Source of the DNA: Daucus carota subsp. sativus
Taxonomy: Eukaryota > Streptophyta > Magnoliopsida > Apiales > Apiaceae
Assembly: GCF_001625215.2 (NCBI RefSeq)
Contig: NC_030383.2
Span: forward strand, 55,852,949-55,916,948
Direction of reading: 5' to 3'
Length of the DNA: 64,000 bases
The position numbers and the translations under genes were made by a program. Each line of letters begins with the position of its first letter. Within the stretch, counting starts at the first letter, position 1. Below are positions 9,484 to 49,679 of the stretch, in pieces. The notes beneath the pieces are model-generated. The model did not search any database, had not been told where the DNA came from, and worked only from the letters and a program-made list of their open reading frames with translations.

Positions 9484-9525
9484 TGGACTTGTTGTAGCTG
9501 TTGGAGACCTCTCCTCCTCACTTGA

Positions 9526-13935: not shown

Positions 13936-16900
13936 ATGGACAAGTATGAGTTTGTGAGAGACATTGGGTCTGGTAGTTTTGGTTCGACGAAGCTGATGAA
14001 GAATAAGGAAACTGAGGAACTGGTTGCCGTGAAATTTATTGAAAGAGGAGACCAGGTTGGCCTTTTTTCACATTTGATTTAATAAAGTTTGATTTTTGTA
14101 TTTTGTAATCTTTACTGACATATGATTGGAAATACTTTTACGCATAAAATTTGTCACACGGATTAAGTTCGCACTAGATTGAAATCAATAATTTGTTCTT
14201 TGTACTCAGATTAATGAGAATGTTGCAAAAGAGATCATTAATCATAGGTCACTCAAGCATCCAAATGTAATAAGATTCAAAGAGGCAAGTTTCACTGATC
14301 ATTTCCCTTTCCACAACTATTGATATCCCCATGGTTCCATGTTTTCATGGCACTAAGCTATGAGTTATCCATTTACTTGCTCTAGATGCGGGTTTTGAAT
14401 TTACAGGTGCTACTTACACCCACCCACCTTATGATTGTGATGGAATATGCTTCTGGAGGAGAGCTCCTTGAACGCATTTCACATGCAGGCAGATTTAGTG
14501 AAGATGAGGTATTTTTAATGTGTTTAGATTTCAACATTTAGCCTGCTGCCTGAATCTTGAACATTTAATCAGCCACTCTTTTGTATAAAACTTTCAGGCT
14601 CGATACTTCTTTCAGCAGCTAATCTCAGGAGTAAGCTACTGTCATGCAATGGTAAAGAAAAACTTATATGAACTGCCTATATAATCTGCATGCTCATCCG
14701 CTTATGCATGTATGTGTGATACCCTTGTGTTTAGTAACAAAGTCTGGATGTAATTATATTACAAGATTCAGAGCTTAGAAAAGGTAAGTTCTGCTCCAAT
14801 TTGAGCACTGGAACCAACAACCTGGAATCCCTGTGTCTGTACAAAGGTTGTGCCCTTTAGTCCACCTACTGGCCAAGGGGTAAACTAATGTATCATTAGT
14901 TTGCAAGACTTATTTATAGAGGAAGCATATTCTATATGTGATAGATCATGTAAATTACCTGTTATATTTGGCAGCAAGTATCCCATGGGGACTTGAAGCT
15001 GGCTAATATTCTTCTGGATGGAAGCGTTGCAAGAAGACTGAAAATATGTGATTTTGGCTCCTCAACGGTGAATCTTTTGTAAAAAAATTATAGTTCAACC
15101 CATCCTCTAAAGCTTTTACGTACTTACATTATTTTATTATATCTTTATGTGGTCATCTGTGCTCGATTCAGCACCTCACTCAATTGCTGGTACACTGCGT
15201 TACATTGCGCCAGAGGTTCTTTCTGGTACAGAATATGATGGCAAGGTAAACCTTAATCTTTGCAGTAAAAACACTATGTTTTAAGTTTGAGATTGATAAG
15301 AATTGGATATATCAATCTTATAAATTTTCTATCTTTGACCTATCAATTTTCAGATGGCAGATGTTTGGTCATGTGGAGTGACATTGTATGTCATGCTAAT
15401 TGGTGCATACCCATTTGAAGACGCAAGGGAGCCTGAAAATTTTGAGAAAACTAAGCAGGCAAGTTTTCCATCAGTTTCTTTAAGTGTCATAAATATATAA
15501 AATGTTACTATCCTGAATTACAGTTTTTTTTCCTTCCTTCTCCAGCGTGTACTGGGAGCCAAATATAAGATCCCTGCCCATGTTCACTTATCTAAAGAAT
15601 GTAGGCATCTGCTTACTCGCATATTTGTTGCTCCTGCAAGCAAGGTATGTTAAATTTTGGGGGCAAGTAATTCAGGAAAAGATATTTAATGAATCTAGTT
15701 TAGTGGAGGATCCAGAAAACAATTTCACTTATGACTCCGTCAGAAGTCATAATAGGGTTTCTGGTGCTTATGACTCTGTCAGAGGCAGACTACAATTTTA
15801 TGCTGTGTAACTTCAAAATTTTACAATTTTACAGAGCTACCGTATCATGTCATACACTTACATAGACAAATGAGTATCTTTGAACTATTAGTTTAGCTTC
15901 GCTAAAGAAACCAGCCAAGTTTTTCTCCAGAAGTACTCTTACTGATATTTTTACAAATTTAGTCGTTTCTGTTCAATTAATACTGGAGCTAAAAAGATTT
16001 ATATTCCTATCACTTTCCAAATTAATCCTGCAGAGGATCAGAATAGTAGAGATCAAGAACTCGCCATGGTTTTTGAAGAACTTGCCACAGGAGCCAACTG
16101 TTACATCTCAAGACATAGACTACAGCAGCGATGAGTCTGACACATGGGTTTTCCAGAGTATTGACAGTATCGTGAATATTGTGGCAGAAGCGACGATTCC
16201 TCCTCAAGCTTCCAGTTTTATTGGAAGGTTCGGATGGGCAGGGGGAAACCAGAATTTGGAAGTGGAAGTGGAAGTGGAGGAAGAAAATGAGTATGGTAAG
16301 AGACTAAAGGAGGTATACGAATCGAGGAGTTTATCAGTGTTTGGCATGGTGAGACCCGCAGAAAGGTCTCTAGTTCCAAAGCAATTTCATTATGATCATA
16401 GAGATCCATCACCATCTCACATGCTTGCAGCTACACATCTTGATCAATCCATGTCTGATTTGCGCTTGGCTGAAAGGTCTTTAGACTCAAACCACTTACA
16501 TACCTATCACTCAGATTTAGGAGCATCTCAGGCAGTCAGCTATGCAAAAAATGCTAATAGTTTTAAGCTACTGGATTCATCAGTGTATATACGTTCTCCT
16601 GAGAAGTCTATAAAGTCTGCAGGTTTTGCAGGAAATCCTACAAATTCCGGTCTGCCTTATTCTAACAAAGTTACGACACTTCATCCATTGATGTCCGATG
16701 TGCGTCCTGCAGAAAAGTCTATTATAGCTGACCAATTGCATCCCCGTTATTTTGATCCATCAGCTTCCGAACTGCAGATTGAAGATCTCACAGAAGGTTC
16801 TATAGTGACAGGCTTAGATTTCGGTGAGCCTGCACAAACTGGAAATTTTGATTTGTCTATATCTGATGTGTGTTCAGCAGAGAAGTCTCTGATCATGTAA
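13936..16900 (+). pseudogene. SnRK2-like kinase copy 1 with repeated tail, splice acceptor lost
   Basis: Exons 13936-14055, 14210-14284, 14407-14508, 14598-14651, 14975-15067, 15153-15245, 15354-15458, 15546-15644, 16034-16900 would encode 535 residues. Visible: glycine loop GSGSFG, VAVK lysine, the catalytic loop HGDLKLAN (Arg of HRD replaced by Gly), DFG, YIAPE, the SnRK2 box (FQSIDSIVNIVAEA) and the glutamate-rich patch EVEVEVEEENEYGKRLKEV seen in subclass I. Unlike the family, which ends near there, about 190 residues follow, with repeats such as MSDLRLAERSL and MSDVRPAEKSI. The exon 6 acceptor reads TGTGG at 15148-15152, where copy 2 has TGTAG, so normal splicing should fail. Introns 2 and 7 begin GC. 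Family role: osmotic-stress Ser/Thr kinase. Probably a recent pseudogene, unless a cryptic acceptor is used. Confidence 0.8.
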
Positions 16901-17671
16901 CTGCTAATTCATCGCATTCTCAAACCAAACAAAATGCAAATCACAAGGTACCTGGTAAGACTTGCAGAGCAGGGTCGTCAGATGTATGCAGGATATAAAG
17001 TGACTGCATCTAGCAAGCGTTGTGTTTTTAATAGAAAGGTTCATGAATCAGTCAAGAGGCTGTACTCTACAAAGTTATCAGTGTTTCAAATGTGATGAAT
17101 AATTCTGAAATTTTTTAAATTCCTATGTCTTCTGACATAAGAATTTACAGACAATATATTTTCATATTCATTTTGGATATTGTGTTAAATTTAGGGAATA
17201 AAAGCTAAATATGTCATTTTCATTTTCAACATTCTTTCTCTTTGTGATGGACCAACCCAACTATATGGAAAGACAGAGTATATCTTATCCTGAGGAATAA
17301 TATTAAGCACCTGATTCGTGCTCTCCGGTGCAATAATTCCTATCAGCTGAGCGGACTGTGCTCACCATCTTCTGAGGCATCATTTTTAAAGACCTTACTG
17401 GTATGATTATGTTTTTTTTCTGGTCAATATAATATTTTGCAGCATTTTTATATATCAAAGGACTTTCGTTACATGTCTTCTTGTACTTTTATGGCAAAGT
17501 AGATTTACGTGCAGCTAAGAGGAGTATACAACTTTGAGAACCAAAAGCTTTGGTTCTCTGGTCCTTGTTCAAACCAAGGCCTTTTAAATTTGTGTTTTGT
17601 TTTTTATTAGGAAACAACGGTACTTTAATTCAGTCTCTTAACAGATTTTTGTTTAATAAATTGTGGAGAGA
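16901..17671 (+). other. Spacer between the two SnRK2-like copies
   Basis: Holds the 3' flank of copy 1 and the 5' flank of copy 2. 17110-17640 matches 12950-13420. No other gene or transposon seen. Confidence 0.6.
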
Positions 17672-18219
17672 ATGGACAAGTATGAGTTTGTGAGGGATAT
17701 TGGGTCTGGGAGTTTTGGTTTGACGAAGCTTATGAAGAACAAGGAAACTAAGGAACTGGTTGCCGTGAAATGTATTGAAAAAGGACCCCAGGTTGGCCTT
17801 TATTCACATTCAGTTAATTTTGATTCTTAGTATTTTTAATCTTTACTGATATATGATTGGTAATACTTTTATTTAGTTCGCACTAGATTGAAATCAATAA
17901 TTTGTTCTTTGCACTCAGGTTAATGAGAATGTTGCAAAAGAGATCAATAATCATAGGTCAGTCAGGCATCCAAATATAATAAGATTCAAAGAGGCAAGTT
18001 TCTTTCATCATTTTCCCATGGTTCCATGGCAATAAGTTATGAGTTGTCCCATGGTTTTTAATTAACAGGTGCTACTTACACCCACCCACCTTATGATTGT
18101 GATGGAATATGCTTCTGGAGGAGAGCTCCTTGAACGCATTTCACGCGCAGGCAGATTTAGTGAAGATGAGGTATTTTTAACGAATTTTCTATGGTGTGCC
18201 CATGTTTTTAATGTGTTTA

Positions 18220-18605
18220 GAGCAACTCCAAGAAAAGCCTTTAGCTAAAAAAACCAAAAATAAAAAATATAGTCAGTATCTAGAAAATAATACACTCCAA
18301 CCATCACAACCCCTTGTATATAAATATAGCCAACCTCCTACAGATGACTATGTTTGTCGAACCTCTACATGACTGTAAGAAATTTATAGTAAGATTACAC
18401 ATCATTTATTATAATATTGTAAATGAACTGATATATTCTATTTATAACACTCTAAAATATTAATAACATACTATTTTTGAATTATAGCCAACCAATATAG
18501 CTAATATCGTCGAAGCACAATGTCTTACAGGTTCATCAAATTTTACATAATGACTTATAGGTCCAATTTAGCCAACGATTATAGCCAACGCCATCGGAGA
18601 TGCTC
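18220..18605. mobile_element. Tourist-like MITE in kinase intron 3
   Basis: 386 bases, ends GAGCAACTCC and GGAGATGCTC, flanked by TTA at 18217-18219 and 18606-18608. The same intron of copy 1 has the empty site GTGTTTAGATTTCAAC with one TTA. Terminal sequence and 3-base TTA duplication fit the PIF/Harbinger (Tourist) class. Confidence 0.92.
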
Positions 18606-19723
18606 TTAGATTTCAACATTTAGGCTGCTGCCTGAATATGGAACATTTAATCAGCCACTCTTTTGTATAAAACTTTCAGGCTTGATACTTCTTTCAGCAG
18701 CTAATATCAGGAGTAAGCTACTGTCATGCAATGGTAAAGAAAAACTTACATGAACTGCCTCTATAATCCGCATGCTCATCCACTTATGCATGTGTATTTT
18801 TTTACAAGATTGTTGAGATATGGATATGTGTGATAAGACCCTTGTGTTTAGTAACAAGACCTGTATGTATTCATATTACAAGATTCAGAGCTTAGAAAAG
18901 GTAAGTTCTGCTCCAGTTTGAGCAATGGGACTGACAACCTTGAATCCTTATGCCATTTCTAAAGTATCATTAGTTTGCAAGACTTATTTGTAGAGGAAAC
19001 GTCTTCTATATGTAATAGATCATGTTGATTACCTGTTATCATTGGCAGCAAGTATCCCATGGGGACTTGAAGCTGGCTAATATTCTGTTGGACGGAAGCC
19101 CTGCAGGAAGACTGAAAATATGTGATTTTGGCTTCTCAACGGTGAATATTTTTGTAAAAAGATTACAGTAGAACCCATCCTTTAAAGCTTTACACACTTA
19201 TATTACTTCAATATATCTTAATGTAGTCAAATCTGCTCCATTCAAGACCTAAATCAATTGCTGGTACACTTCGGTACATTGCTCCAGAGGTTCTTTCTGG
19301 TAGAGAATATGATGGCAAGGTAAACGTCAGACTACATCCATCGGAACATTATGCTTTAAATGTTTTATAAGAATCGGATATATCATACAAAAGGATAACA
19401 GGTCTATGACTTCAGAGTATACTTCTAATATTTGAGCTTACTGACCAAACAATAGTTCGAATTGTATTGTGTTTTTAGTATTTCAATCTCCAGAGTTTGC
19501 AACATTTTAGAGACATTGAGCATGAAACCAGAAATCAAAGCTTCCCTCACTTTTTTTAGAAATCCAGACAATAATTATAATTTTCTCAATATCAGTCTTT
19601 TGTTGCCATATTAGTTTTCCTTTACCTCTCCAGGGTACAAAAATTAAGCTAACAACACTAGTGAAATTAATTTATTTATTTTAATTTTGACACCAGTAAA
19701 TCTAAGGTTCTCAGTAGAACTGT

Positions 19724-19855
19724 TAAGTGATCAGTTCTCCCAAAACCTCAATAGCCTGAACTCTGATAACATGTTAATTGACCAGTTCTCCCAAAACCTC
19801 CAGAGCCTGAGGTCTGATGTCATGTTAAGTGACCAGTTCTCCCAACACCTTGAGG
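19724..19855 (+). repeat. 51-bp minisatellite in kinase intron 6
   Basis: Nearly three tandem units of about 51 bases, each containing GACCAGTTCTCCCAAAACCTC and ending with CATGTTAA. Because the unit is a multiple of three it forms an open frame (S-D-Q-F-S-Q-N-L repeats). The surrounding intron is larger than its counterpart in copy 1, which lacks the array. Confidence 0.85.
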
Positions 19856-21712
19856 TTTTGGATAGTTGGTCACTGAACAAGAACTTTATAGGCCTCTGTC
19901 TACATTGTGCTGATATAATCAATTTTTACGAATGCTGTATATGATGTTCAAGTTGAGCAAAGTTGTGTACTGTTGGACGAGAATGTTTTGTAAGTAAACC
20001 TTGCATCCCCTACTGCAAAAACGTTGTTCTGGACATCTTTTCTGGTAAAAAAAGGGGTTGAATATATTGTGTTTTATAATTTCTTGTAATGAACATGGGG
20101 AGATTATAATCTTACTTTTAAGCTATCTATTCACAGTTGGCAGATGTTTGGTCATGTGGAGTGACATCGTATGTCATGCTAGTTGGTGCATACCCATTTG
20201 AAGACCAAAAGGAGCCCCAAAATCATCAGAAAACTATGCAGGTAAATATTCCTTTAAGTTCTTTAAGTATCATCAATGCATAATATCATATTTTACTGTC
20301 TTAAAAGTGAATTTTTCATCCTTCTCCAGCGTATACTGGGTGCCCAATACAAGATCCCTTCCTATGTTCACATATCCGAAGAATGTAGGGATCTTATTTC
20401 CCGCATGTTTGTTGCTAATGCACGCAGGGTACGTTGTATTCTGCAGTTATGTAATTTATGTTAGTAAGGATATTAAAAGAAACTAGTATAGATTTGTTTT
20501 ATCTTTAGCATTAGCGATTTTCAGTTTTTAAGCATAAGTACAACTACCAAGTGCACCAACAAGTCGTGACATTCTGGGAGCCTGTCGGATTATTTCGATT
20601 ATTTCGCATTCGGAAGCCAGGAAGTGATTCACTCTTCAGATACTGACTTTGGGCCTTGTCCGTAGAAGTTAGAATTATGGAAGTTGGACAGATAACGGCA
20701 TACAATTAATAGATAAATCATTATTTTTGATGATCTGCCTTGCAAAAGAATCTTCTTACTTTTCCTGTAGAAGTATATCTTATGTAACATTTCAGCCGTC
20801 CTGTTAAATTTTTACTGTAGAAGTCTGTTATTTCTGCAGAGAAAAACAATACGAGAAATACAGAATCACCCATGGTTTCTGAAGAACTTGCCGCAGGATC
20901 TATCGGCTACAGGTCAAGCCATACACTACAGGAAAAGTGACTCCACATATCCTCTCCAGAGTATCGAGAGCATCAAGAAAATTGTGGAAGAAGCCAGGAA
21001 GCCGTTGATGATTTATTCTTCTTCAGTTTCCAGTTCAATTAAAGGCTTTGGATATGCAACACCAATGTTAAACCAGCTTCATGACGATCATACAGATCCA
21101 TTCCCACTTCCTGCGACAAGTTTTGATCAATCAATGTCTGGTATTCGTTTGCCAGAAAGGTCTATACTTACAGATCAATTGCATTCCTATCATCCGGATC
21201 CACCAATTTCTCAGTCAGTAAGTTACACAAAAAAGGCGACAAATCCAAAGCTATTAGATTCATCTATGTATGTCCGTTCAGCCGAAAGGTCCATAAACTT
21301 TGCAGGAAACCATACAAATGCTGAGCCTAAAGATTCATCAATGTATAGTGTGCGCTCCGCTGAGAGGTCTTTAGACCCTAACGTATTACATCCCTATCAA
21401 TCACATCCATCAGTATATCGTACAAATCCAAAGCTCTTTGATCCATCTATTTCTGATGTGCTTTCGTCTGAAAAGTCCATGAAGTCAAATGCATCATATC
21501 AATCAGAACCATCAGCGTATCAACTGCAATCACTAGGTTTTCACTCCAAACTATTAGATATCAAGAGCTTGACACAAGTTGCAAGTTCAGATCTGTCAAT
21601 GTCCGATGTGCATCCGCCAGAAAAGTCTATAATTCCTAACAAAATGCATTATCATATTGATCCATCAGGTTCTAATCTGCATGCTAAAGGCAAAAAGTTC
21701 TGTAAATTCTGA

Positions 21713-22303
21713 AGTTCTAGATACCAGTTATTTGGCACGGTTTGGGAATATTGATATATCTATATCTGATGCGTGAACTCAAGGTAGCTCAAGGTTCAGC
21801 TCATCTATGCAAGTTCAAATTTCCTCTCCAATTAGGCCTTTTATTTGAAGTTCTTGTTCATTTATCCTATATTAATGTGTAAGCAACTGTAAATCACAGA
21901 TAAATAATTATCTAATCGTAATTATTTCTAGTTTTTTGCTTCTTCACTAACAGATCCTCTGGCCTTCTTTTTCTCTCTCTATTTCGGATGGTATACAGAT
22001 TACGTATTAGGGATTCGAGAAAAGAGTTCATATATATAAAGTTCATAGGAAATTCAATAATTATATTTAAACTAAAGATGTAGTGTTGCTATGTAAGCTT
22101 ATACATGCTCATTAGCTCCGGATTGTGGACTTGGCTGTGAGATAATCAACCATGTATTCGGAGGTTATGAATAAATCTAGACTGTTTATGTATTCAAGAA
22201 AAAAATTCAAATTTCTACCTCTCACATATGAGGTTTTAGGAGTGGAAGTCAATTCTGCAAACACCTCTATGTTGTTACAAACTTGAAAAAGAAACTAGAC
22301 CAC
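21713..22303 (+). other. 3' flank of SnRK2-like copy 2
   Basis: The first 65 bases continue the original kinase tail in another frame (ISISDA then stop). The remainder is AT-rich without features. Confidence 0.5.
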
Positions 22304-23367: not shown

Positions 23368-26088
23368 TTAGTTAGGCTTTAGTCCAGCATTGACAAGGAT
23401 CTTTAGCCAATTATTACCCTGGCTCTCTTGCTCTTTCTGAATATCCCTTGCAGACTCTGTTGCAGCATCACTACATCCACTCAACCCAATCCACTCAAGT
23501 GTGCATATATTACCAAAGTCATCCGGAAGTTCAAGCAGATATGGGCATCGGTACACCTGTAAGCGCTGAAGCACTGGAAAATGATTACGAGAAGCTGTCC
23601 AGATCACAAAATCCATTGTATCAAGTTTCAAAAATTTGAGCCGAGGGAAGGCTTCTGGACTTGTTTCCCAGACTTTACCAGCAAAGGCATGCAATTTCAA
23701 CTTGAGAACTTCAAGGTTAGGTATCATTTCGAACACCCAAGCTTCCTTCCAATCCAAATAAGTATTTGAAATAGAAAGACTTTTAAGACTTTGGGGGAAT
23801 ATAATTGAGTCGCTTAATCTTCCGGCTTTGCACAAAGTAGTTGTATTTAACAACTTCAATGTTTTAAGGTGCACTAGAAGGCCTAGATCAGGAAATTTTA
23901 TGTCCCCAATCTTTGTTGTGAAAGGTCCACAAAGACCTAGTTTCTGCAAATTACGAGTTCTAGCTAGGATATGTTGACATTGCCTAGTAGGGCTCACTAG
24001 TGACAATGTCTGCAAATTTTCCAATAAATATTGTCCTTCATCAACATTAGAGAAATTCACAAGATTTTCACCTGACTTGATACAAAGATGCCTTAACTTT
24101 ATCATCTTCCACATGTTTTCTGGAACAACCATATTCATCCTTGATGACATGATAAGTGTTTGGAGTTCTGCCAGGTTGGATATATGTTCTGGAGGGTTGC
24201 CAGATCTAAAACGAATTTCCAAGTACCTCAAGTGTACAAGTTGCAATAGTTCACTTGGAAACATGAATAATTCTATGGATGATATATTCAAAGCCCTGAT
24301 CAGTTTAGAGGTATCCCACATAATTGAAACATCCTTAAAAAATAATTCGGACACTTCAGAAGAATAGCAAGAACAGTTTGATCCCGTAGTATGGACATTC
24401 GTGTTGAGCAAAAGTTGGAATTTCTTAGAAGGACTCGTTAAGGAATGAGGACACCTATAAGAATGTTTATTGTGGTAAATATTTGGTAAGAAATTCTCCT
24501 CCTCGGCCTTTCTTAAGCTCAAGTCACGCAAGAGGTCATGAATACGACATGTTTTGATTGCACCCATAGACCCTTTCTCACATACAACTAGACTCCTACT
24601 TGCAAGATCTGTCAAATAATCCGCCGCGACATCCTCCAATCTCTTCTCTGTGCTATTGTGACATATGAATCCTTCTGCAATCCACAAACAAACCAACTTA
24701 CTAACTGGAATGTCATAATCTTCTGGGAATGCTCCAAAGTAGAGAAAACAAGGTCTTAAGTATTGCGGCAGGTGGTCATAACTCAATGCTAGTGTATCCA
24801 TGTACCGATTTTCATCAGTTAAAATGTATGAACTTACTCTTTCCTCCACCTCTGCCCACCATTCTATCTTCAAATTGGATTTGAGTAGTCCAGCAATTAC
24901 AACAACCGCAAGAGGCAAACCCCGACATTTTTTAGTAATTCTCTTTCCAATTAAAGTCAAATAGTTAAAGAGATCTTCAGTGATGAAAGCTTTCCTTCTG
25001 AGCAAAGTAAAACTTTCCTCTTCCGTCAGGAAACGCAAATGAAGTGGATTCCCATCAGATTGTGCATGTAAAGCCACTTCTTCAAGTCGGGTGGTCAACA
25101 TAATTTTACTCCCATTGTTATCATTTGGAAAACATCTTTTCAAGTCATCCCATGCCTCGCTACTCCAGATATCATCAATTACAATCAGATATCTCCGATC
25201 CATTAAAGCACGATACAATTCATGGGCTAACATGTTATCATTCATCCTACAAATTTGATCAGTAATCTCAACAACAGACCTTAAAATGCCAAGCAATAAA
25301 TCCCTCTGTTGATAATCCTGAGAACAACAGACCCATACACGAACATGAAAGTACGAGACTAAATAGGGATCATTATAAAGTCTTCTAGCTAAAGTCGTCT
25401 TACCTAGTCCAGCCATCCCGACAATTGAGATCACTTGAAGCTGCTTCTTCGTGATACTCGCAAGTCTTTTGAGTAGATCACTAGCCTCCTCTTGGAATCC
25501 AACAAAAACTTCCTCATCTTGTTCTTGACATTTCTTCTCGTCAAAAATGAAATGAGAAGCGAAATCTGGGCACACGACATTCGAATCTTTTGGCTTGTCA
25601 AAAATGTGCATGCAGGCTTCATAAATCCCAGACAGTCGAGCCACTAGTTCGTCTCCAACAATTTTCAGACCCATCTTATTATTAAACTTAATTTTAATAT
25701 CTATTATATCCGGTTCCTTCCCCATAAGCTTAATTAGCCTAGTAATAGCAGTAAGGTTCATATATTCCTTTGCTTTTACAAATAAGGAAGATAAATATAT
25801 AGAATTAGGTTGACCTGTGATTGTAAAGCTTGGAAATACTTGCAAGGAGGACCTTAGCTTTTCGGAATAGAATTTAAGTTGACGTTCTTGGGCAGGAGAC
25901 CAATAAGGATATTCAAGCAGCTCGTCAACTTGTTTTATCCAAGAAGCAAACAGAAGATCTATTCTTGATTTGACTTGGGAAGATAGACAATCATTTAAAG
26001 CAGGGGAACTAGGGAGATGAGGAAAGGGAGCTCTTGGAAACTGGACATTCGGCTGCGCACACCACCGTGCCACAAGATTTCCCATCAC
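23368..26088 (-). CDS. CC-NB-LRR (NLR) immune receptor, R1/RPP13-like
   Basis: 906 codons, no intron. Residues 1-200 form an R1-type N-terminal region ending FVGFQEEASDLLKRL. The NB-ARC follows: P-loop GMAGLGKTT at 224-232, kinase-2 LIVIDDIW at 301-308, GSKIMLTTR, GLPLAVVVIAG from 390, and CRIHDLLRDL at 514-523, with Ile in place of Met in the MHD motif. About 590-906 is a short leucine-rich repeat region (LVHLRYLEIRF, LAELQTLIMSS, FPRLKFLKLD). Family knowledge: such proteins detect pathogen effectors and trigger cell death through ADP/ATP exchange. All core motifs are present and the frame is intact, so it may be functional. It is shorter than solanaceous R1 proteins. It lies next to two ACD6-like genes on the same strand. 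Confidence 0.93.
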   Translation of the reverse strand: MMGNLVARWCAQPNVQFPRAPFPHLPSSPALNDCLSSQVKSRIDLLFASWIKQVDELLEYPYWSPAQERQLKFYSEKLRSSLQVFPSFTITGQPNSIYLSSLFVKAKEYMNLTAITRLIKLMGKEPDIIDIKIKFNNKMGLKIVGDELVARLSGIYEACMHIFDKPKDSNVVCPDFASHFIFDEKKCQEQDEEVFVGFQEEASDLLKRLASITKKQLQVISIVGMAGLGKTTLARRLYNDPYLVSYFHVRVWVCCSQDYQQRDLLLGILRSVVEITDQICRMNDNMLAHELYRALMDRRYLIVIDDIWSSEAWDDLKRCFPNDNNGSKIMLTTRLEEVALHAQSDGNPLHLRFLTEEESFTLLRRKAFITEDLFNYLTLIGKRITKKCRGLPLAVVVIAGLLKSNLKIEWWAEVEERVSSYILTDENRYMDTLALSYDHLPQYLRPCFLYFGAFPEDYDIPVSKLVCLWIAEGFICHNSTEKRLEDVAADYLTDLASRSLVVCEKGSMGAIKTCRIHDLLRDLSLRKAEEENFLPNIYHNKHSYRCPHSLTSPSKKFQLLLNTNVHTTGSNCSCYSSEVSELFFKDVSIMWDTSKLIRALNISSIELFMFPSELLQLVHLRYLEIRFRSGNPPEHISNLAELQTLIMSSRMNMVVPENMWKMIKLRHLCIKSGENLVNFSNVDEGQYLLENLQTLSLVSPTRQCQHILARTRNLQKLGLCGPFTTKIGDIKFPDLGLLVHLKTLKLLNTTTLCKAGRLSDSIIFPQSLKSLSISNTYLDWKEAWVFEMIPNLEVLKLKLHAFAGKVWETSPEAFPRLKFLKLDTMDFVIWTASRNHFPVLQRLQVYRCPYLLELPDDFGNICTLEWIGLSGCSDAATESARDIQKEQESQGNNWLKILVNAGLKPN

Positions 26089-26209
26089 ACAACGGCGGAG
26101 AGAGACTTTTTAAGGATATTCAACTTCACAGGTGGGTCAAAGGTGAATGTTAGGTGTATATGTGGTTGAGGAGAGCATGCATACTTTGAAATGTGAAATG
26201 TGATAGTTA

Positions 26210-26938: not shown

Positions 26939-29900
26939 TCAGTAAAGCATGTGTTTTTTAGGCTTGAAAAGAAATCTAGAACTCAATGTTGTACGGACCA
27001 CATCGAAAAATAGACGATATTGAAGTCTGGCAAATAAAAGAACTGGTCCTCCAGCTAAACCAGTGATTAGATAAGGTACCCATTTCATGCCTTTTGTATA
27101 CACCAGGAAGAAGCTCGCACTGAAAGCGATCATCATTGTAGTAATTGAGATGAAAAGTGTGAAGAGCCCAATCATCAATTTTATTGGCAACGACACCAAA
27201 AAATCTCTTTCTGCATAACGTGCTGTAAGAATGGCCAGGAACATGAGTATTGAAGCTGCAGAGCTGAACAATGAAATGGCGTCTGTTATTACAAACACGA
27301 TGAATGCCCCTTTATGTTTAAATATTGGATGCCCGCTATCCTGATTGTTACCACCTGGTAAAGTAAAGGCTGCTGCAAACATAATCGTAGCTATAAGGGC
27401 AGCAACAACCATGCATTGAGATGCTGTTTCCTTCATCCAGCTTTCCCCTTTCTCCATCAGGTCTGAATGCTGATGAGTAAATAATTCATGGGGAGTTTTC
27501 CCTTGTCTATTCTTTTTTTCTCTTAGAGAAGGATGCACCATAGTTTCTACTTCCTGATTAGATTACGATAAGAATAAATTAATATATAGAGGCATAGTAT
27601 ACTTTGGGGTGTGTGAAGGGTGATCTAACTTAAGATTTGAGTGAATCAATTGTAATAGAAAGTTAACTTTGATAATGTAGATCAAGACCAGGAAACAATA
27701 TAATGAATAACTAAACTTACATAGAATCTTTGGAGTAAATGTATTTTATTAATTTATTTTTGATGAAGGAATATTCACCTTGAACCACAGTATTTCTCTT
27801 TGCATTTGAAGAGCTACTCCTGACACGATATGAAGACGACTTTGTTCTGGCTTCATGGCGGCTAAGTGTAGTATATTGTTGTCATTAGTGTCCTTAAAAG
27901 AAGTTACGAGGTCCTTAATTGATCCTATCTCATATAGAAGATTGTAGACACTCTCCTGACGATGCAATACTGCAACATGGAAAATTGTTCGATCATTGTC
28001 ATCTATCTTCCATATTAGCTCAGGACACAATCGCAGAAGCTCGATCAAAAATTTAGTATTTCCCAATGCAGCAGCAACAAATAGAAGTCGAGATTGATAT
28101 CCAGTGATTCTCTCAACATACTTCGCACCAGGGTGGTTGCCTTCTCTGACTTTTATCACCTCTGGAGGTCCTCTAATTATGTTCCATATTTCTTCATCCT
28201 TCAATTTAACAATCTCTCTCCAAATTATCTGGACTATTTCAATTGCTTGACACTTTTCCTCACCAGGCCCTCTTCTTGGTCCAGGAAGAACTGTAAAAAA
28301 AATGTAAACAATATCAAATACAATTTATAAATTTTGCATATACCATCTACGACATAGACTAGGTTAAGCTTCTTCAAGTTTAGATAAGTATTTTGCCTCC
28401 TGAATCTTTAAATTTTGTTTCTATTTTAAGATACTATTTAGTAATAAAAATAAAATATATATATTACATGCTTCATCAGGCCAAACGATCATGGATTCAC
28501 CACGGATAACTTACTTGTATTAAGTAGTCTCCAAAAAATGGGCTGCCTTGTTCCATCAAATACTGACGGATTTTTAGCCAAAACATGGAGTGCATTTTTG
28601 TCAGTTGCCAGAGCTAGTTCTTTCTTGTGATGGTGCAATAATTTCAATGAAACATCTACAAAATTCGATGAACTGTTATAACAACATAATTGAAGCTACT
28701 GCGCAAAATAAACCAATCATAAAGATCTAGCAATACAGTACAAGACGTCAGTGAATATTCTTAGGCTGAAGTTATGATTTAGCAAATGAGTGGTAGTAGG
28801 ATCAAGCCCTTAACCATATCCAGTTTGAAGCAACATAATAATTTCACGGATCCCTAAAATCCTAAGTGATGCATCAAGATATTTGAACATTCCTTAATGT
28901 CAAGTACAACGTCTTCAATTACTGAAAAAAGTACTGGAACATGTATTCATCTGTTACTATATATAGCCTCTGGGGAATTGTAGCACCCTGAATCTAAAGT
29001 AGCAGTTACCATATTATACTTAAATGTACTTGCAGAACCCATTAATCCTATGCAGATTTATCTTGGAAGAACCAATTGGAGAAAGTACAAATTTCTAATA
29101 TTCACATAATGAGAAAGACAAGGGTTCTGTTGTGCGCCATATTAGAATGTTGACCAACAATTTTAGCAATAACACAACTTAACAGGCAAGAAAAAAATGG
29201 CTTTCTGAAGGCGCTGGCATCACATAAGAAGCTATATTTTGCAATCATGTATGTATGCATTCTTCTGCTCGTTTAACTTGTCTACTAATATAAGAAGAGA
29301 AATGGAAAAGATCATATGGCTTTTAATTATATTCAGAATGGCATAGAAAGCTTATAAGATGGACATGATGACTTGAATTTTTTTCCTATTAAATTAGTTC
29401 CAAGAGAAAGTTTACCATATAGATTTGCGCTGATGCAGGCATGCAGTAGCATAATTCTATCCGTATTAATCCAATCATCATCTGTCATGTTTTTCGTCTT
29501 ATTATAAAGATATGACACCATGTCTTTGTGTCCAAATAAAGCAGCCATCAGGAGTGGTGACATTTTATTGTTTCCACGTATCTTAAGAAGGTTAGGTCTC
29601 TTCCGAACCATAATATCAGCAATCTTAACTGTTCCAGCTGCTGCTGCTAAACAGAGAGCTGTGTTCGAGTTTTTGTTTTGAAGTTCCAAGTCCTCAGGTT
29701 CCATCAATTGCACCAGCTCTTCCACAAAGTGAGTGTGTTTTGTTGACGATGCGATGTGAAGAGCAGTCTCAGAATTTTTTGTAATGCTCATATTTATCAC
29801 CTTTCGACATTTTCCTATGATTCCTTGAGCAGCTTGCCAGTCACCTTTGAGTGCAGCTTCATAAAGCGGCAAACAGATATCCAGGTAATTTTCTCTTTGT

Positions 29901-30921
29901 TCCTCTGTTTGGAGTTCAAGCGTAAAAGTTTAGTACTCAATCCATAATTTGTTTACAAAGAAGCTATGATTAAAGTACCCTATTCTTTGTTGACTATTTT
30001 TTATATATATTCAATTAGGAAAACAAGTGATAAACACAAACATCAATTTGATGCCTTGACACTTACCTTTAAATCAAATAAAACCAATCAACCTCAGTCA
30101 TACCTTTTATTTCTTAATATTAATATTGATTTATTGGCTGGCTTGTAATTATCCACAGGTTGCAATAAGAGACACAAAAACCTAACTCTAATGCAGGCAA
30201 AACACTTTCAACGTCATTGTTCATGCTGGAATTACACGCTCAGATGGCAATTTCCCCACTAGCAGCTTCATTTCAGGCGTGTTCTTTAGGTGCACAAGAA
30301 CAGGTAACATAGCTTATACATCACACCGTAGTTGTGAATTCGGGTTGACTATCAGGCCTTATTTCAAACACATTATGTTAAATGGCCGACTCTCTCCCAG
30401 AACTCGTAGTACATGCTGTAATATAACCTATTAAATGAGAAATTAAAATTTACTTCACAAGATATTTTCACTTATCATCATAGGCTTTAACAAAAAAAAA
30501 ATGTAAATATAACAAAGTCATTCTATCTGTCTCGAGTTCTAGGAGGAAACTATGCCTGTTTGCAACATTGCATAAAGCCAACGCCTAATTACTGCAAAAC
30601 CAATAACTTCCACACTCCCTCCTTAGATATCGAGTCTTAATTAGGCAAATGCACTTAATCTAAAAATGCCCAACTGCAGCAATCGAGAAACCACAAGCAT
30701 CTAACACAAACAACATAGTCATGGATAAATAAAATGAGAATCAAAATGAAAAAGGGCTAACCAGAAAGATACTCAGCAGAAGGCAAACTAGGACTAGCAG
30801 GCCGCACCTGAGAAGTAGAGACAGGGTGAGGAGGATGAGGTACACTATTAATATTAATAGAATGATAAGGCTGTAGCTCCATCTGATCAGCAGCTGAGTT
30901 TGAACTACTTGCTCCTGTCAT
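26939..30921 (-). CDS. ACD6-like ankyrin-repeat membrane protein A
   Basis: Five coding exons on the minus strand: 30921-30762, 29904-29416, 28655-28515, 28290-27779, 27553-26939; phases agree throughout and give 638 residues. Exon 2 encodes ankyrin repeats (PLYEAALKGDWQAAQ, ETALHIASSTKHTHFV, NTALCLAAAAGTVKIA, MSPLLMAALFGHKDMV), exon 4 a second block (RTIFHVAVLHRQESV, NNILHLAAMKP). Exon 5 is the PGG domain: MVVAALIATIMFAAAFTLPGG followed by three more hydrophobic segments, so four membrane spans. ACD6/ITN1 family proteins sit in the plasma membrane or ER, and ACD6 promotes salicylic-acid-dependent defence. I infer a similar class of role; the exact one is unknown. The start is the only ATG in the first exon consistent with gene B. 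All splice sites are GT-AG. Confidence 0.88.
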
Positions 30922-33109: not shown

Positions 33110-33346
33110 CTCTCTCCGTTTTGAAATATAAGTGGCTTGACTTTTTTGCACGCAATTCTAAGTGCTTTGACCGCATTCTAAAAATCATTATTTTTAAAAT
33201 TTTCTTTTTTTGAATAAAAATATGTGATATATATTTTTATTCAGAAAAAGAAAATTTCAAAATTAATGATTTTTAACATGCGGTCAAAACACATAAAAAT
33301 ACGTGTAAAAAAGTCAAGCGAATGATATTTCAAAACAGAACAGTGG
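33110..33346. mobile_element. Stowaway-like MITE, diverged
   Basis: Left CTCTCTCCGTTTTGAAATATAAG and right ATATTTCAAAACAGAACAGTGG are inverted copies, with TA at both flanks and an internal foldback. Confidence 0.65.
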
Positions 33347-33578
33347 TAGTTCATGGAGTAGTTAAGAAACAAATCTGACAAAGGACATCCTGAGTGTCAC
33401 ACCTTCGAAACTTACATATTGTAATCAACAATACCGAAACAAAATGCATTGATTTTGAAGTTGAATTCGATGAATTTAAACACTTACTCACCAGGCATTA
33501 CTTGCCAAGACTTGAACATTTAACCATTATGCTGTGAAGAACTATAGGATCACAGCACGGAAATCCTCACAGAGTTCT

Positions 33579-36500
33579 TCAGTAAAGCATGCCTCTCTCA
33601 GGTTTGAACAGAGACCTGGAACTATAAGTTGTACCAACCACGTCGAAAAATAGACGAGACTGAAGTCCAGCAAATAAAATCACAGGTGTTCCAGCTAATC
33701 CACTGACTAGATACGGTACCCATTTTATATCTTTCGTATAAACTAGGTAGAAGCTGGCCGCGAAGGCAATCATCATTGTAGTTATTGAGATGAAAAGTGT
33801 CAGGAGCCCGACCATCAATTTTAAAGGTAAAGACACCAAGAAATCTCTTTCTGCATAACGTGACGTGAGAATGGCTAAGAACATGAGTATGGAAGCTGAA
33901 GAGCTGAACAAGGATACAGCGTCGGCTATTACAAACACCATGAAGGCAGGTCTATGTTTGAATATTGGATGCCCGCTATCCTGATTGCTACCACCAGGTA
34001 AAGTAAAAGCCGCTGCAAACGTTATTGTAGCTATAAGGGCAGCAACAATCATGCACTGAGATGCTGTTTGTTTCATCCAGCTTTCCCCTTTTTCCATCAA
34101 CTCTGCGTGCTCATCAATGAATAAGTTTTGAGGAGTTTTCCCTTGTTTGTTTTCATTTTCTCGCAAAGAAGGATGCACCATAGTTTCTACTTCCTAATAG
34201 AGACCAGGGAATTATATAATGAACAGCTGACAAAATATATTTTCAAGTAAAACCATTGTTTTTAGGCTTAAGTTCTTGATAAGGAATATTTACCTTGAAC
34301 CACAATATTTCCCTTTGCATTTGAAGAGCTGCTCCTGACACAGTCTGAAGTCGACTTTGTTCTGGCTTCATGGCAGCCAAGTGTAGAATGTTGTTATCAT
34401 CCGTGTCCTTCATACTAGTTATGAGGTCCTTTATTGAGCCTATCTCGTATATCAGGTTGTAGACACTTTCCTGACGATGCAAGACTGCGACGTGAAAAAT
34501 TGTGCGATCATTGTCATCTACCTTCCATACCAGCTCAGGACACAATTGGAGAAGCTCGATCAAAAATTTAAAGTTGCCCAATGAAGCAGCAACAGATAAT
34601 AGTCGAGACTGATATCCCATGAATTTATCAACATACTTAGCATCAGGGTGATTACTTTCTTTTTCTTTTATCATCTTGGGCGGGCCTCTGATTATGTCCC
34701 ATATCTCGTTATCCTTCAGTTGAACAACCTCTTCCCAAATTATCTGGACAATTTTAAGGGCTTGAGACTTCTTTTCACCTGGTCCTCTATTTCGTCCAGG
34801 AAGCACTGTGGAAAATGATGTTAGTTTTTACAGAGATAATAGTATATATTTCATTTTTAGTCAAGGGTATATGTTGCATTTGAATTTAGCAAAATAATGT
34901 TTCAAATGCTATATTATGCCAACGAGATAGAAATAAGAAAAAGGCCCAATTTCTTCTCTTTTAGACAAGAAAAGCGTTTCCTTTCCTCAGCTTATATTTT
35001 TTTAACATAATATTATACACATACATATGAGGGAGCCCCATGGAGACCAGGGTATGCCATGGCTCACCATGAGATTTTATAAATTTTCTATATTCTATGC
35101 TTTGAAATTTCAATTAGGTGAGTTGTCCAAGACCATATAGCAGCAACAGATGTATGTTTTTTTTTCATTCAAATCCTAACAATAGCAATGCTTTTTCTCA
35201 GTTACTGTAATTTTTTAGTTGAGTAGCATCATGTTTTATCGGCACACCCTAAATTTTGTGGCTCACTCCACCACCGTATATATAATATATTACATGCATA
35301 CCGGGTCATAAAGAATAATAAGTTCACTCGCAGACAACTTGCCTGTATTAAGCAGTCTCCAACATACAGGCTGCCCTGTTCCAGCAAATACAGAGGGATT
35401 TTTAGCCAAAACAAGAAGTGCATTCTTGTCAGTTGTCAGAGCTAATTCTTTCTTGTAATGTTCCACTTCCAGTAATTGTAATGCAACATCTACACAAAGG
35501 TTGAAGCTGTTATAACAAGTTGAATGAACCTAATATTAAAAGCAACAGTCATAAAGATCCAGCATTGCAGTCAAGATAAATGTAAAGCACAATATTTATA
35601 TATATATGAAGAGAAGAAACAAATGCAGAGAAGATATAATTAGCTGTTAGTACAATATTTTTCTAATGAGGAAGTATTCTTTGCAGGAAAGTCCGTGTGC
35701 ATATTTTTTGTGCCACTTAATATGTATACGGAAAAAAATATTACATTCAATTTGATAGTTAGATTCAGAATGGTGTAAAAGCATATAAAATGGATAAAAC
35801 AACTTGATTTTGAATTTACCCAGTATGCTGCTAAGCAAGAGAAAGCTTACCGTATAAATTTGCACTGACGCAAGCCTCCAGTAACGTTATTCTATCCCTT
35901 CCAGTCCAATCATTATCTGACATACTCATAGTCTTAGAATACAGAAATGACACCATATCTTTGTGTCCAAACAAAGCCGCCATCAGAAGTGGTGACATAT
36001 TATGGTTTCCGTGTATTTTGAGAAGGCGGGATTCGCTTCCCACCATAATCTCAGCAGATTTAACTGTTCCAGCTGCTGCAGCTAAACACAGAGCTGTATT
36101 CCAGTTTCTGTTTTGAAGAAACAAATCCTTAGGATTCATCAAGTCCACCAGCTTTTCCACAAAGTCACTATGCTTTGTTGACGATGCAATGTGCAGAGCA
36201 GTTTCATAATTCTTGGTAATGCTCACATTCACTATATCCGGACACTCGTCAATGATCGCTTGGGCAACTTTCCAGTTACCTCTGAGTGCAGCTTTATGGA
36301 GTGGCAAACAAAAAGCTAGGTAATTTTTTCTTTCATTCTCTGCGTCATGTCCAAGTGTAAAAGCTTAGTATAGCAATTCAGAATCTTGTCAAGAAAATTA
36401 GTTATGGCTAAATTTCTCTTTTTTTGTTACTCAGTTCTATATTGCAATATCAAAAATAATAAGCTCGGCACTGAAAATAACTGAAGTTAACAACAGCCAA

Positions 36501-42900: not shown

Positions 42901-45900
42901 GCATAGACATTCCTTCATTTGTCTTTATTGCATGTCTTCTTACTATGATCATTCTAGACTATTTAAATTTTATATATTTTATTGGCAGGCTGAAGTGACT
43001 CTCAAGAAAGGATCATCCAAATCAGTTCAGTTTGAGAGTAAAATTGTGAGTGCATCTAATACTTATGCTTATTAATGCACGGCTGAAATGACTGTACCTG
43101 ATAAAAAAAAAGGATAAGCGAAAGTGTTTTCTAGCCCTAGGGCTCTAAATGAGTCGATTTGTTTGTGAACAAGCTCGGCTCAACTCGATTTGGCCCGTTA
43201 TCGAGCTCTAATTCGAACAAAAAAATATGCTTGTTAAGGAACTCAAGTCGATTCGAGTATTATTTGTGTTCGACTCGATCTCGACTCTTAATCGACTCGT
43301 TAAACTCGAACCCGGCTCTTTAAAATAGAATAGATATGAGATTTCAGCTTTGTCATGTGTTAAAAAATAGAGATAAATAGATAATAGAATACAAATACAA
43401 TATTAATATTTGATATTTTAACTTCTACTGAATTTTCCATAATTTAATATTTTATAAAAATTTATTTTTAAGTTTTAAATCAGCTCAAAATAAAATAAAA
43501 TAATTGAAATTTTCACGAGCTACTCGAAATTGATTCGAACTCGATTCGACTTGAATTGTATTGTTCGCGAGCAAATCGAACTCAACTTGGTTCTTAATGA
43601 ACTCATTTTTGAACAACAACAATTGTTCGATAAGCTTAACGACCAAACATGACAAGAAAAAAATCAAACTTGAACTCAATAAGCAAAAAAGTTGACCTGA
43701 CTTTTTGTTTACAGCCCTATGTTGGCATATATAGAAGCTTTACTTGATGAAAATAACATATATAATAGCAGAAATATACTTGAAGTATTACTACTCTTAT
43801 CTAAGCCTGTGGAACCTTCGTTTCATAGAGCATCTCCTATATGGTTACACTGTCATTACAATTTGATCATCAAACCATTTACAATCTGGATTCTAAAATA
43901 GCTTGTTGGAATTCTATAGTACCGTTTATATTATTATGACATCTTGAGCTCATTACTGAAGTAGCAAGACTTGATATAGTACTACATTATTTAGTTATTT
44001 TCATATTTTCAGTAAATTATTATGTTCCTCCGTAATTCTTCTGTGTATTGCTTGTAAATGTTTTCAAGTTTCACCATCCCACTTTCAATTAGTATATAAA
44101 AAGTAAATTTTTGGGACCATGCAGGTAATTTTGAAGTTGCTAACTATTGTAATATTTTCAAGGGGAAAGTTGCTTGAAGTGATGTAGATGAGAGGGAACA
44201 ACAAATTAATGTCTTAGTGATATGACAATATTTGACACCCTTAATGATTGCCACCATTGGATGTGCTCATGATAGATGGAATTCATTATTTTGTCCATTT
44301 TATTCTGGAAAAACTGTCTCTTGAAAATCCATCAGATACAGAACTTTCAGTGGATCTGTGGCAGTAACATATGCTCTGACTTAGTATTTTAGGAAAAAAC
44401 TGATTAATTAGAGATTTTTCAAATTGATTTCTTGTTGAGACTTTACTAAATTCACTTCTTTTTTTGGCCAACATTTAAGGTGTAAACATTTCCTCTGTTC
44501 TTATGTTTATAGGAAGAAAAAGACCTGCAAATGAAGGCAGCAACAGTCAAAAAAATGATGGAAAGTGGTTATCGTGTAAAGGTATATTTTATTTGTTATA
44601 GACATGATGTTATTTTAATCTTTGTTTTAAATGTTATTGGTAGTTATAATCGTGATGCCCTTGTACCATAAGTATGTTACACTTACATTTTCTTTCCCAG
44701 TGGAATGGATTATTGGATGTTTTTCTGGTATAGCATTTTTGTTGATTTGCTACAGTAGGACTACATATCTTGTGCATATGCTTTACATCATTTGGTGTTG
44801 TTTAATGCACACACTCTTTGTCGTTATGAACTATAAATAGTTCCTTGTCTGAAGCATTTTGGTTTTTGAACAGTGTCTCGCCAAGGCGAATGATAAAAAG
44901 GCGAATGATAAAACGGAGAATGATGAAACGGATAATGATAAATCAGAGAATGATAGAAAGGGGAATGATAGAAAGGGGAATGATAGAAAAGGGAATGATA
45001 AGAAGGTGAATAATAAAAAGGTGAATGATAAAAAGGCAATGCCTAATGAAGATGAGAACCTACCAGGATTGTTAGCCCGTTTCTGCGCTCTGGTAATTTT
45101 CTACCTCCCTTTACATGGTGATAATACTTCAGAAAATTTATGCACCAGTAACAATAATCTTTGCTTTGCAGATTGCGGATGTTGCAGTTATAGAAAGTGG
45201 GCCTATAATAGAGAGAAAAGGGGCATATGTTGTTGTCCGACATGTGAAGTATGGGCTACCAAAGAAAGGCTCAAAGAAAACTTTCCAACTTCAAGCCACA
45301 AGTAACCAAGCTAAAGAGGTTTCCTATTCAGAGGCAGACATGATTCCTGTCAATGAAAGCTCCATGCTTGATGACCTGACCCCCACATCCCACCCACCAG
45401 AACCTTCACTTGAAATTGAAAATAGGTACAAAAAGGACCAAGGAAGCAGATCTTTACCTTACACAGAACTGAATGTTGCTAGTCCTCCATGTGAGACTGA
45501 GAACAGGTACAAAAAGGACCAAACAACCAGGTCTCCGTCTTCCGCAGAAATAAATGTTGCTGGTCCTTCACTTGAGACTGAGAACAGGTACAGAAAAGAT
45601 CCGATAAACAGGTCTTCGCCTACACAAACAAATTTCGCAAGTGCTGATACAAAACCTTTACAACCCCAATCTCCATACCAAGGCAGACAACCACAACAAT
45701 ATCCAAACCAAGAGAGGCAAGTGCCACAATATCCAAACCAAGGTAGGCAACCACTACAACATCCAGATCTAGGCAGGCAACCGCAACAATATCCTGACCA
45801 AGGCAGGCAACTGCCAAAATATCCATCTCAAGGTAGGTCAACACAGCCATATCCGAACCAAGGGAGGCAAGCACCAGAATATCCGAACCAGGGCAGACCA

Positions 45901-46047
45901 TATCCTGGTGCTTCACCTAATTCATCCGGTGGTTCGGAACCTAACAGTACTACTGAGCCACAACCGGCAGTGGTAAATAGGTATAAGAAAGCTGTTAATC
46001 AGCATTCAGGTGTGCCCAACTTTCATGGCAGAGGGCACGGTAGATAA
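39933..46047 (+). CDS. Organellar translation initiation factor IF-3
   Basis: Eight exons: 39933-40124, 40250-40340, 40711-40778, 40880-40978, 42989-43045, 44513-44581, 44874-45092, 45172-46047, all phases consistent, 556 residues. Residues 1-64 are basic and Ser/Gln-rich, like a mitochondrial transit peptide. The IF3 N domain is clear: LNEKITAPSVRLVLDQGHTIVSRREALERAKS, DLVEVDRNAKPPVCKIMDY. The C domain is in two parts: DLQMKAATVKKMMESGYRVKC and IADVAVIESGPIIERKGAYVVVRHVKYG. IF3 binds the small ribosomal subunit and controls start-codon selection. Oddities: exon 7 places ten N-D-K-type pentapeptides between the two halves of the C domain, and exon 8 adds about 250 residues with ENRYKKD repeats and Gln/Pro-rich decapeptides. 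Introns 4 and 5 carry MITE-like insertions. Mitochondrial rather than plastid targeting is an inference. Confidence 0.9.
40351..40411 (+). repeat. 30-bp tandem duplication in IF3 intron 2
   Basis: GTTGTTGTTTTAAGGTTATA followed by TATTGCATT occurs twice in a row just after the donor of intron 2. Confidence 0.85.
41194..41884. mobile_element. Possible Harbinger-like MITE in IF3 intron 4
   Basis: Left GGATAAGGGGTTGGGAAGAGG and right CCTTCTCAACCCCTCATCC are inverted copies; TAA lies immediately outside each end (41191-41193, 41885-41887). Terminal bases TGGAGTATTTGG and GGGTGTATATGG are only roughly alike, so the class is tentative. Confidence 0.55.
43138..43719. mobile_element. Possible hAT-type MITE in IF3 intron 5
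   Basis: Ends TAGGGCTCTAAA and TTTACAGCCCTA are inverted copies, a common plant hAT terminus. The interior is rich in AACTCGA/TCGAGTT motifs. The 8-base flanks (TCTAGCCC and TGTTGGCA) do not match, so no target duplication supports it. Confidence 0.55.
44884..45038 (+). repeat. 15-bp coding minisatellite in IF3 exon 7
   Basis: About ten 15-base units built on AATGATAAAAAGGCG and AATGATAGAAAGGGG, encoding x-N-D-(K/R)-K pentapeptides. The central three units are nearly identical, which suggests recent expansion. The frame is kept. Confidence 0.9.
45410..45905 (+). repeat. Two peptide-repeat arrays in IF3 C-terminal extension
   Basis: First, three units of about 27 residues beginning E-x-E-N-R-Y-(K/R)-K-D (about 45410-45650). 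Then about eight 10-residue units of the form G-R-Q-x-x-x-Y-P-N-Q (about 45675-45905). A last N-R-Y-K-K-A follows near the C-terminus. Confidence 0.85.
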
Positions 46048-48440: not shown

Positions 48441-49544
48441 ATGTCTCACGGGCGTCCCAACAAAACTCCTTTTCCTAAAAGTTTGAATGAACTACTCTTA
48501 AACAGGAGTTCTGCACATTCTGATGCTCTGGAACTATCAACTGAACTGCTTCCGACCAGCAGACATCGTGATCAATCATATTCTGCACAATCCCATTCAT
48601 CTCCATCATCAACATCTCAACCGCACCCCCAAGACGACAATTATCCTGAAAGTCTAAGGAAATTTCTTAAGATAACTATGTATCCTGAGAGTTTACAGAA
48701 ATTTCTTTTGAAGCAGCATTCTCAATCATCACAGTCATCATCATCATCTCAAATGCACCCGAAAGAAACTAGTCTTTCTGAGAGTTTACAGGAATTTCTT
48801 TTGAAGCAGCATTCTCAATCATCCCAGTCATCATCAACATCTCAAGTGCATTCAAAAGAAACTACTTTCCCTGAATCCCTACAAATATTTTTTCAGAAGC
48901 AGCATTCACAGTCATCACACTCATCGTCAACATCTCAAGTGCACCCAAAAGAAACTAGTTTGCCTGAATCTCTACAGAAATTTCTACAAAAGCAGCTTTC
49001 TCAGTCATCGCACTCATCATCAACATCTCCAATGCCTTCTGAAGTAATTCCTTTTCCAGAAAGTCTAAATCAATTACTTTCTGAGAAATCTAGTGACTCC
49101 TTCGAACAACATCTTAATCCTATTCCATCAATATCTCAAATTCGCCCCTTACCAAGGTCAATACAAAAACATAATGATTCCATATTAGCACAAGCTAAAG
49201 AGTTTGCTTTATTTACAATATCTCATATCCGTGATATTCCAAGGTCTCAAATTCGAAATATTACCATATCAGAGCAATCTACAGATTTTGATTCATATAC
49301 AATATCATGTATTAGCTCTTTTCAAAGGTCTACAGAACTATATCAAAATCAAAATATTTCGATGTCAGATCAATCTAAAGATTTTGGTTTATTTACAATA
49401 TCTCAAATTCGCCCTTTAGAAAGAACTACAGAATTTCTTCCAAGACGACCCTCAAGTTTTAATGCACCCACGATATCTGATATTCGCCCTTTAGAAAGGA
49501 CTACAGAACGCCTCTTAGTACGACCCACAAGTTTTGATGTCTAA
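48441..49544 (+). CDS. Repeat protein of unknown function, Ser/Gln-rich
   Basis: 367 codons from MSHGRPNKTPFP, no intron seen, no family recognised. Two kinds of repeat. Residues about 70-215: four to five units of about 30 residues, P-E-S-L-Q-K-F-L-x-K-Q-H-S-Q-S-S, then a serine run, then S-Q-V-H-P-K-E-T. Residues about 225-367: shorter units such as TISQIRPLERTTEF, TISDIRPLERTTER, SISQIRPLPRS and TISHIRDIPRS, separated by D-F-x-x-F/Y. The second type resembles the tail repeats of the SnRK2-like genes (SISDV, MSDVRPAEKS). The TAA at 49542 falls inside the array: the same frame continues to TAG at 49677-49679 with another unit, LSQVRLFERSAV. No signal peptide or membrane segment. I infer a disordered, possibly soluble protein. 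Confidence 0.6.
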   Translation: MSHGRPNKTPFPKSLNELLLNRSSAHSDALELSTELLPTSRHRDQSYSAQSHSSPSSTSQPHPQDDNYPESLRKFLKITMYPESLQKFLLKQHSQSSQSSSSSQMHPKETSLSESLQEFLLKQHSQSSQSSSTSQVHSKETTFPESLQIFFQKQHSQSSHSSSTSQVHPKETSLPESLQKFLQKQLSQSSHSSSTSPMPSEVIPFPESLNQLLSEKSSDSFEQHLNPIPSISQIRPLPRSIQKHNDSILAQAKEFALFTISHIRDIPRSQIRNITISEQSTDFDSYTISCISSFQRSTELYQNQNISMSDQSKDFGLFTISQIRPLERTTEFLPRRPSSFNAPTISDIRPLERTTERLLVRPTSFDV

Positions 49545-49679
49545 GCACACCTTCATATCCACTCGGCAGAGGCCAGGAAATCTTCACACTCAAGTCGTCT
49601 AGCACAATCTAGAAGTTTATTTGTTTCAACAAAATTGTCTCAGGTCCGCTTATTTGAAAGGTCTGCGGTTAAATTATAG

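Follow-up and report, generated by a model that had tools for sequence, protein, structure and literature searches.

Introduction

The C-terminal end of SnRK2 kinases is usually a short regulatory region, which in subclass I is an acidic C-terminus ending near KRVKEVHASGE. Non-RD kinases, in which the arginine before the catalytic aspartate is replaced, are mainly immune receptor kinases, and without this HRD arginine catalysis should depend less on phosphorylation of the activation loop. Work by Dardick and Ronald from 2006, cited in PMC3306294, is said to deal with this class. Here we describe kinases of Daucus carota subsp. sativus which resemble the SnRK2 proteins SRK2E/SnRK2.6, SRK2I and SAPK10 in their kinase domain and differ from them in having HGD for HRD and about 250 extra residues of repeated units; they share the replaced arginine with non-RD kinases but belong to the SnRK2 lineage. 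We studied a 64,000-nucleotide stretch of contig NC_030383.2 (here C3, positions 55852949-55916948; henceforth the window) together with its upstream region. Two such kinase copies (genes A and B) lie in the window and a third (K3) upstream of it, and the window also holds an intronless gene with a related unit (gene C). Genome searches were confined to this one plant genome (441 Mb, 11 contigs), and coordinates are window positions on the plus strand unless marked C1 to C7.

A Rosaceae survey lists SnRK2 proteins of 198 to 891 residues (PMC7653828), so tail length alone is not new. In the titles and abstract openings of the papers listed by our literature searches no repeat tail of an SnRK2 kinase was described, which is not proof of its absence from print. 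What emerges from the sequences is a set of SnRK2 kinases with a local repeat tail, plus a single-copy gene that most likely took its unit from that tail. Our overall explanation, i.e., an array of tailed SnRK2 kinases, a gene C unit derived from the tail, and a unit acting as a docking or phosphorylation motif, has in our estimate a probability of roughly 45%. A lineage gaining about 250 repeat residues while losing the HRD arginine would be a route to rewire a stress kinase, and gene C, a separate nearby gene with this motif, is a candidate for a gene that arose out of a kinase tail.

Results and discussion

Tailed kinases in a tandem SnRK2 array

The original prediction held that both SnRK2-like genes of the window run past the usual C-terminus with repeated units; they do, and the peptides quoted for genes A, B and C are real and lie where they had been placed. 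The kinase-tail unit can be written approximately as S-[IM]-S-D-V-R-[SP]-A-E-[RK]-S-[IL], together with some 20 looser residues. Comparison with relatives gives gene A (13936..16900) nine exons (13936-14055, 14210-14284, 14407-14508, 14598-14651, 14975-15067, 15153-15245, 15354-15458, 15546-15644 and 16034-16900) and five tail units at 16337..16888, with 11-residue cores from 16337, 16448 (MSDLRLAERSL), 16577, 16688 (MSDVRPAEKSI) and 16856. Gene B (17672..21712), likewise of nine exons (17672-17791, 17919-17993, 18069-18170, 18680-18733, 19049-19141, 19227-19319, 20137-20241, 20330-20428 and 20840-21712), has five units at 21131..21628, with cores from 21131 (MSGIRLPERSI), 21260 (MYVRSAERSI), 21338, 21446 and 21596. 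Searching the window in all six reading frames with a regular expression for the core yielded 7 matches, all within genes A, B and C or just past the gene C stop. No Pfam family exceeded its curated cut-off in the last (tail) exons of A and B or in gene C, in agreement with the earlier remark that no described family with this unit was known to its author. An Apiosidase match in the tail exon of gene A (E = 0.088) fell under the cut-off and was disregarded.

As SnRK2-like sequences genes A and B hold up, since their kinase parts match SnRK2 and align with K3, but neither has the appearance of a functional gene. Gene A has GG instead of AG at the acceptor before exon 6 and is probably a broken copy. 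Gene B looks broken as well, to judge from its reading frame: exon 4 starts GCT TGA, a stop set against an arginine codon in A, K1, K2 and K3, and a frame break lies ahead of the last tail unit, which persists in another frame after the gene B stop as a remnant at 21733..21773 (DISISDA, then a stop). The donor after exon 2 is GC instead of GT in A (14285), B (17994), K1 (C3:55828996) and K3 (C3:55841592) and GT in K2; A has a further GC donor after exon 7 (15459).

Genes A and B close a tandem SnRK2 array that begins about 28 kb upstream and was mapped with exon queries across 80 kb from C3:55803000. These queries placed a partial SnRK2 copy at C3:55826299-55827059. K1 (from C3:55828718) and K2 (from C3:55835935) are open, have HRD and lack units; the K1 model requires a donor three bases ahead of the exon 1 end used. 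K3 (C3:55841222-55849167) is open over nine exons and 609 codons, has HGD and a six-unit tail, and contains an intron 8 of 3.1 kb; at intron 2 its model depends on a weak-consensus GC donor. On its sequence K3 could make a protein, and it is the strongest candidate for a functional tailed kinase. The array also includes tail pieces without an in-frame kinase: one near C3:55825161 with one internal stop, one near C3:55850348-55850848 with two, and a tail-only open frame, G2 (C3:55832792-55833577; five units in 262 codons, the second of which is Met), which sits downstream of K1 in a frame differing from that of K1. SnRK2 fragments were also seen at window positions 5261-5601, where exon 1 lies beside pieces resembling exons 2 and 4, and similar exon 1 and exon 4 pieces occur at C3:55838979-55839213.

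Over the kinase domain, K3, A and B all match SnRK2. Specifically, residues 3-303 of K3 matched SRK2E (3ujg) with E = 2.9e-123, and the 7 distinct PDB sequences retrieved with K3 at E up to 1e-60 were all SRK2E, SRK2I or SAPK10, a limit at which the search is uninformative on the tail alone. HRD, as present in K1, K2 and SRK2E, is replaced by HGD in K3, A and B; because the catalytic aspartate and DFG are present, we regard this as a deviation inside the SnRK2 family and not as grounds for exclusion from it. Tail and HGD coincide within the array, as the three tailed kinases (K3, A and B) all have HGD and both complete untailed copies (K1 and K2) have HRD. When SRK2E served as the outgroup of a tree, K1 grouped with K2 (99% support) and A with B (98%), with only 64% support for joining K3 to A and B.

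In K3, A and B the tail sits in the last exon, straight after the usual protein end and with no intron between. K3 and A have an acidic stretch followed by KVKEVY or KRLKEVY, from which they read on into the units; the stretch is absent in B. Four genes that we take to be subclass I by the resemblance of their ends (C1:27291618, C2:41082701, C2:43567595 and C5:41613300) have an acidic last exon with an end such as EYDKRVKEAHQSGEVPLT. K3 and A match these ends up to KVKEVY or KRLKEVY, but the four genes stop there, without units downstream, whereas K3 and A continue. Neither K3 nor A nor B has the stop that in subclass I comes soon after the KRVKEVHASGE-like end.

In this genome the unit turned up only within the tandem array, in fragments of it and in gene C. 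A genome query with the tail of A gave 13 matches, 8 of them in the array (including the query itself), two adjoining on C1 (8068552-8068762; up to 79% identity to the A tail) and one on C7 (8208304-8208450); the two matches at E above 2 we take as chance. With the K3 tail there were 10 matches, of which nine fell in the array and the tenth was the C7 fragment, at E = 0.55. The C1 and C7 fragments are pieces of the tail end. SnRK2 last exons, searched for across the genome, yielded 21 matches. Of these, 7 belong to the array; of the other 14, which lie outside it, 13 were read (one at E = 0.175 was omitted). Tail units were absent from all 13 between the match start and 1.5 kb past the match end, the sole match below E = 0.01 (0.0096, behind a C6 gene) lacking the core. 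Eleven of the 13 end as ordinary SnRK2 proteins, and HRD was present in all five outside loci that reach that exon. The remaining two last exons, at C3:7110677 and C4:45787896, are damaged.

We also compared ratios of non-synonymous to synonymous substitution rates (dN/dS). Values were 0.40-0.61 for the tail in six pairs (K3, A, B and G2) and 0.30-0.74 for the kinase part in 10 pairs (K1, K2, K3, A and B). The tail is coding sequence with a degree of constraint, at present or until recently. These values bear on the alternative that read-through and duplication left behind the tails and gene C, all without present function. That alternative would account for the broken appearance of A and B, for the stops inside the tail pieces near C3:55825161 and 55850348 and for the A-B kinase value, the highest of the kinase pairs at 0.74. 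It accords poorly with the open frames of K3, G2 and gene C, with the tail values and with dN/dS of 0.18-0.70 in six pairs of the first repeats of gene C, and we consider it rather unlikely.

Probable relation between the kinase tails and gene C

Gene C is an intronless open frame of 367 codons plus stop (48441..49544, ATG at 48441) which stayed open in none of 2000 base shuffles. It lies 27 kb beyond the kinases on the same strand, and the array and gene C together fall within 77 kb; between B and gene C, searches for kinase exons and tail units with filters off gave weak matches only. No paralog was found in the genome, the next match of the whole protein having E = 2.97 and the C-terminal part having none. 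The protein is serine-rich and has two types of repeat. The first consists of four 31-residue copies (48681..49052); the second, which bears the shared motif, of five units (49128..49502) with cores from 49128 (SISQIRPLPRS), 49215, 49299, 49395 (TISQIRPLERTTE) and 49470 (TISDIRPLERTTE). Beyond the stop follows LSQVRLFERSAV, whose core from 49632 forms an extra unit, KLSQVRLFERS (49632..49664).

That one unit is common to the kinase tails and gene C, as the original prediction proposed, is supported by profile comparisons. When a profile of 21 of the 27 kinase units (6 dropped) was aligned with gene C in hhalign, we obtained E = 1.2e-5, and with units from outside the window alone (13 of 17; 4 dropped) the result was E = 1.6e-5; in both versions none of 200 column permutations did as well. 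Two other repeats of the window, used as controls against the outside-unit profile, gave E = 0.53 and 0.55. The gene C profile windows were hand-cut around its own repeat, the alignment itself being local. A protein position matrix from 22 of the 27 kinase units (5, one residue shorter before the core, were dropped) gave 17.9 bits for the best gene C unit, the top non-kinase match in the window. With 4000 trials of each kind, a single residue shuffle of gene C, five shuffles of two-residue blocks and a single column-permuted matrix scored as high, and the corrected chance is about 0.01, allowing for the 31 open reading frames scored. The aligned relation spans about 11 to 18 residues per unit and concerns the C-terminal units only, so that the description of gene C as a repeat protein sharing the unit applies to this part and not to its first repeat type, which is unrelated.

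Shared ancestry or convergence had both been offered as explanations, and the codons favour the former. Given the peptide, the codon choice of the six gene C units resembled that of the kinase units with p = 0.0006-0.037, or 0.0006-0.060 when gene C's own usage was applied, and 94 other gene C stretches behaved as chance in the same test (6% below 0.05, 2% below 0.02). In five of the six units the second serine is TCT, the first arginine CGY and the second arginine AGG, like most kinase units having those residues. The DNA tests used 23 units, including one from a different frame of a broken tail piece; the resulting DNA matrix gave 21.5 bits for the unit at 49470, a score reached in none of 60 random windows. 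Because gene C shares the kinase-unit codons, which convergence of the peptide does not predict, we prefer shared ancestry, and on these sequence comparisons it is probable that the tails and the gene C repeats descend from a common source.

Several results weigh against our overall explanation. The match extends over few residues, and the six units in gene C are mutually dependent. In local HMMER searches with 27-unit profiles, gene C was not among the best 30 domain matches for either profile, and genome-wide queries with single tails or with gene C found no connection in either direction. Thus, where the original prediction had staked itself on a significant alignment of kinase-tail and gene C units, profile comparison gives one and ordinary single-sequence searching does not. 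With the 15 outside units only, the DNA matrix gave 20.1 bits, and 2 of 60 random windows reached the gene C score. Constraint on the second repeat type of gene C is slight (10 short pairs, dN/dS 0.30-1.09). The first repeat type, tried as another possible relative of the kinase unit, scored 13.4 in the matrix for STSQVHPKETS and was rejected by the profile, with 64 of 200 permutations as good. Finally, structure models of tail A (mean predicted local distance difference test score, pLDDT, 44.7; built from two sequences) and gene C (45.7; one sequence) were without a confident fold.

Some of these results could be explained if a serine-rich repetitive gene had reached and multiplied a similar motif by chance or convergence, without common descent. 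The failure of HMMER and single-sequence searches to link tail and gene C, the serine richness of gene C, the random windows that matched the outside-unit DNA score, and a corrected chance of about 0.01 for one unit, not negligible for a motif picked by eye, would all fit such an origin. We nevertheless hold it to be unlikely in view of the profile comparison, unmatched by any of the 200 permutations in two versions, and of the agreement in codon choice given the peptide. Matches of gene C to the K3 tail (E = 6e-5, 25% identity) and the G2 tail (E = 0.006-0.011) were not counted on either side because composition correction was off and gene C is serine-rich. A blastn match between gene C and K3 intron 8 lay on the other strand, contained stops and was dropped.

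If the units share ancestry, transfer may have run either way. An intronless gene C-like repeat gene downstream of an SnRK2 copy could have fused to its last exon and thereby become the tail. This would explain why the tail shares an exon with an ordinary kinase end, with no intron between, and why an intronless gene bears the unit. Yet gene C is single-copy and diverged, the array is densely populated with the unit, and the tail-only pieces of the array are plainly close to the kinase tails, which in our estimate makes this order of events unlikely. Transfer from a kinase tail to gene C is, from the sequence distribution, the direction we lean towards.

Proposed origin and role of the tail

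In the course of events that we propose, a tandem SnRK2 array derived from a subclass-I-like member would have gained a C-terminal extension of repeated units in the last exon, and the tailed copies would also have lost the HRD arginine. K3 would have stayed open while A and B decayed, one tail being left as its own open frame (G2), and gene C would have taken a diverged unit from such a tail.

Many copies of one short motif in a disordered tail are the usual anatomy of multivalent docking or phosphorylation. The tail is rich in serine, and the models suggest that tail and gene C are disordered, but they can only suggest it because, low as their pLDDT is, they were built from one or two sequences. 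The tail may work as a short linear motif present in many copies, disordered and either bound to a partner or phosphorylated; by analogy with such tails, a role in docking or phosphorylation is a tentative proposal that falls somewhat short of an even bet. Given a motif-rich, probably disordered tail and the loss of the HRD arginine, we propose that K3 might be an SnRK2 kinase in which a docking tail has taken over part of the control from the activation loop, and that gene C might present the motif in trans, without a kinase. A still more specific possibility, which we regard as speculative and unlikely as it stands, is that gene C is a young single-copy protein that budded from a kinase tail and acts as a decoy, scaffold or substrate in the pathway of the non-RD SnRK2 K3.

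Surroundings of the array and gene C

Between the kinases and gene C, the minus strand contains an NB-ARC/LRR gene (23368-26109) and two runs of ankyrin-like and PGG-type frames (27752-36364), for which Pfam matches were seen at 27752-28324, 33582-34193 and 34246-34827. Another repetitive open frame, at 45097-46044, has ENRYKKD and YPNQGRQ repeats and no Pfam family, and served as a profile control. Beside the kinase array, Copia-type retrotransposon frames (RVT_2, integrase) occupy 127-3018 and 7696-11067 on the minus strand.

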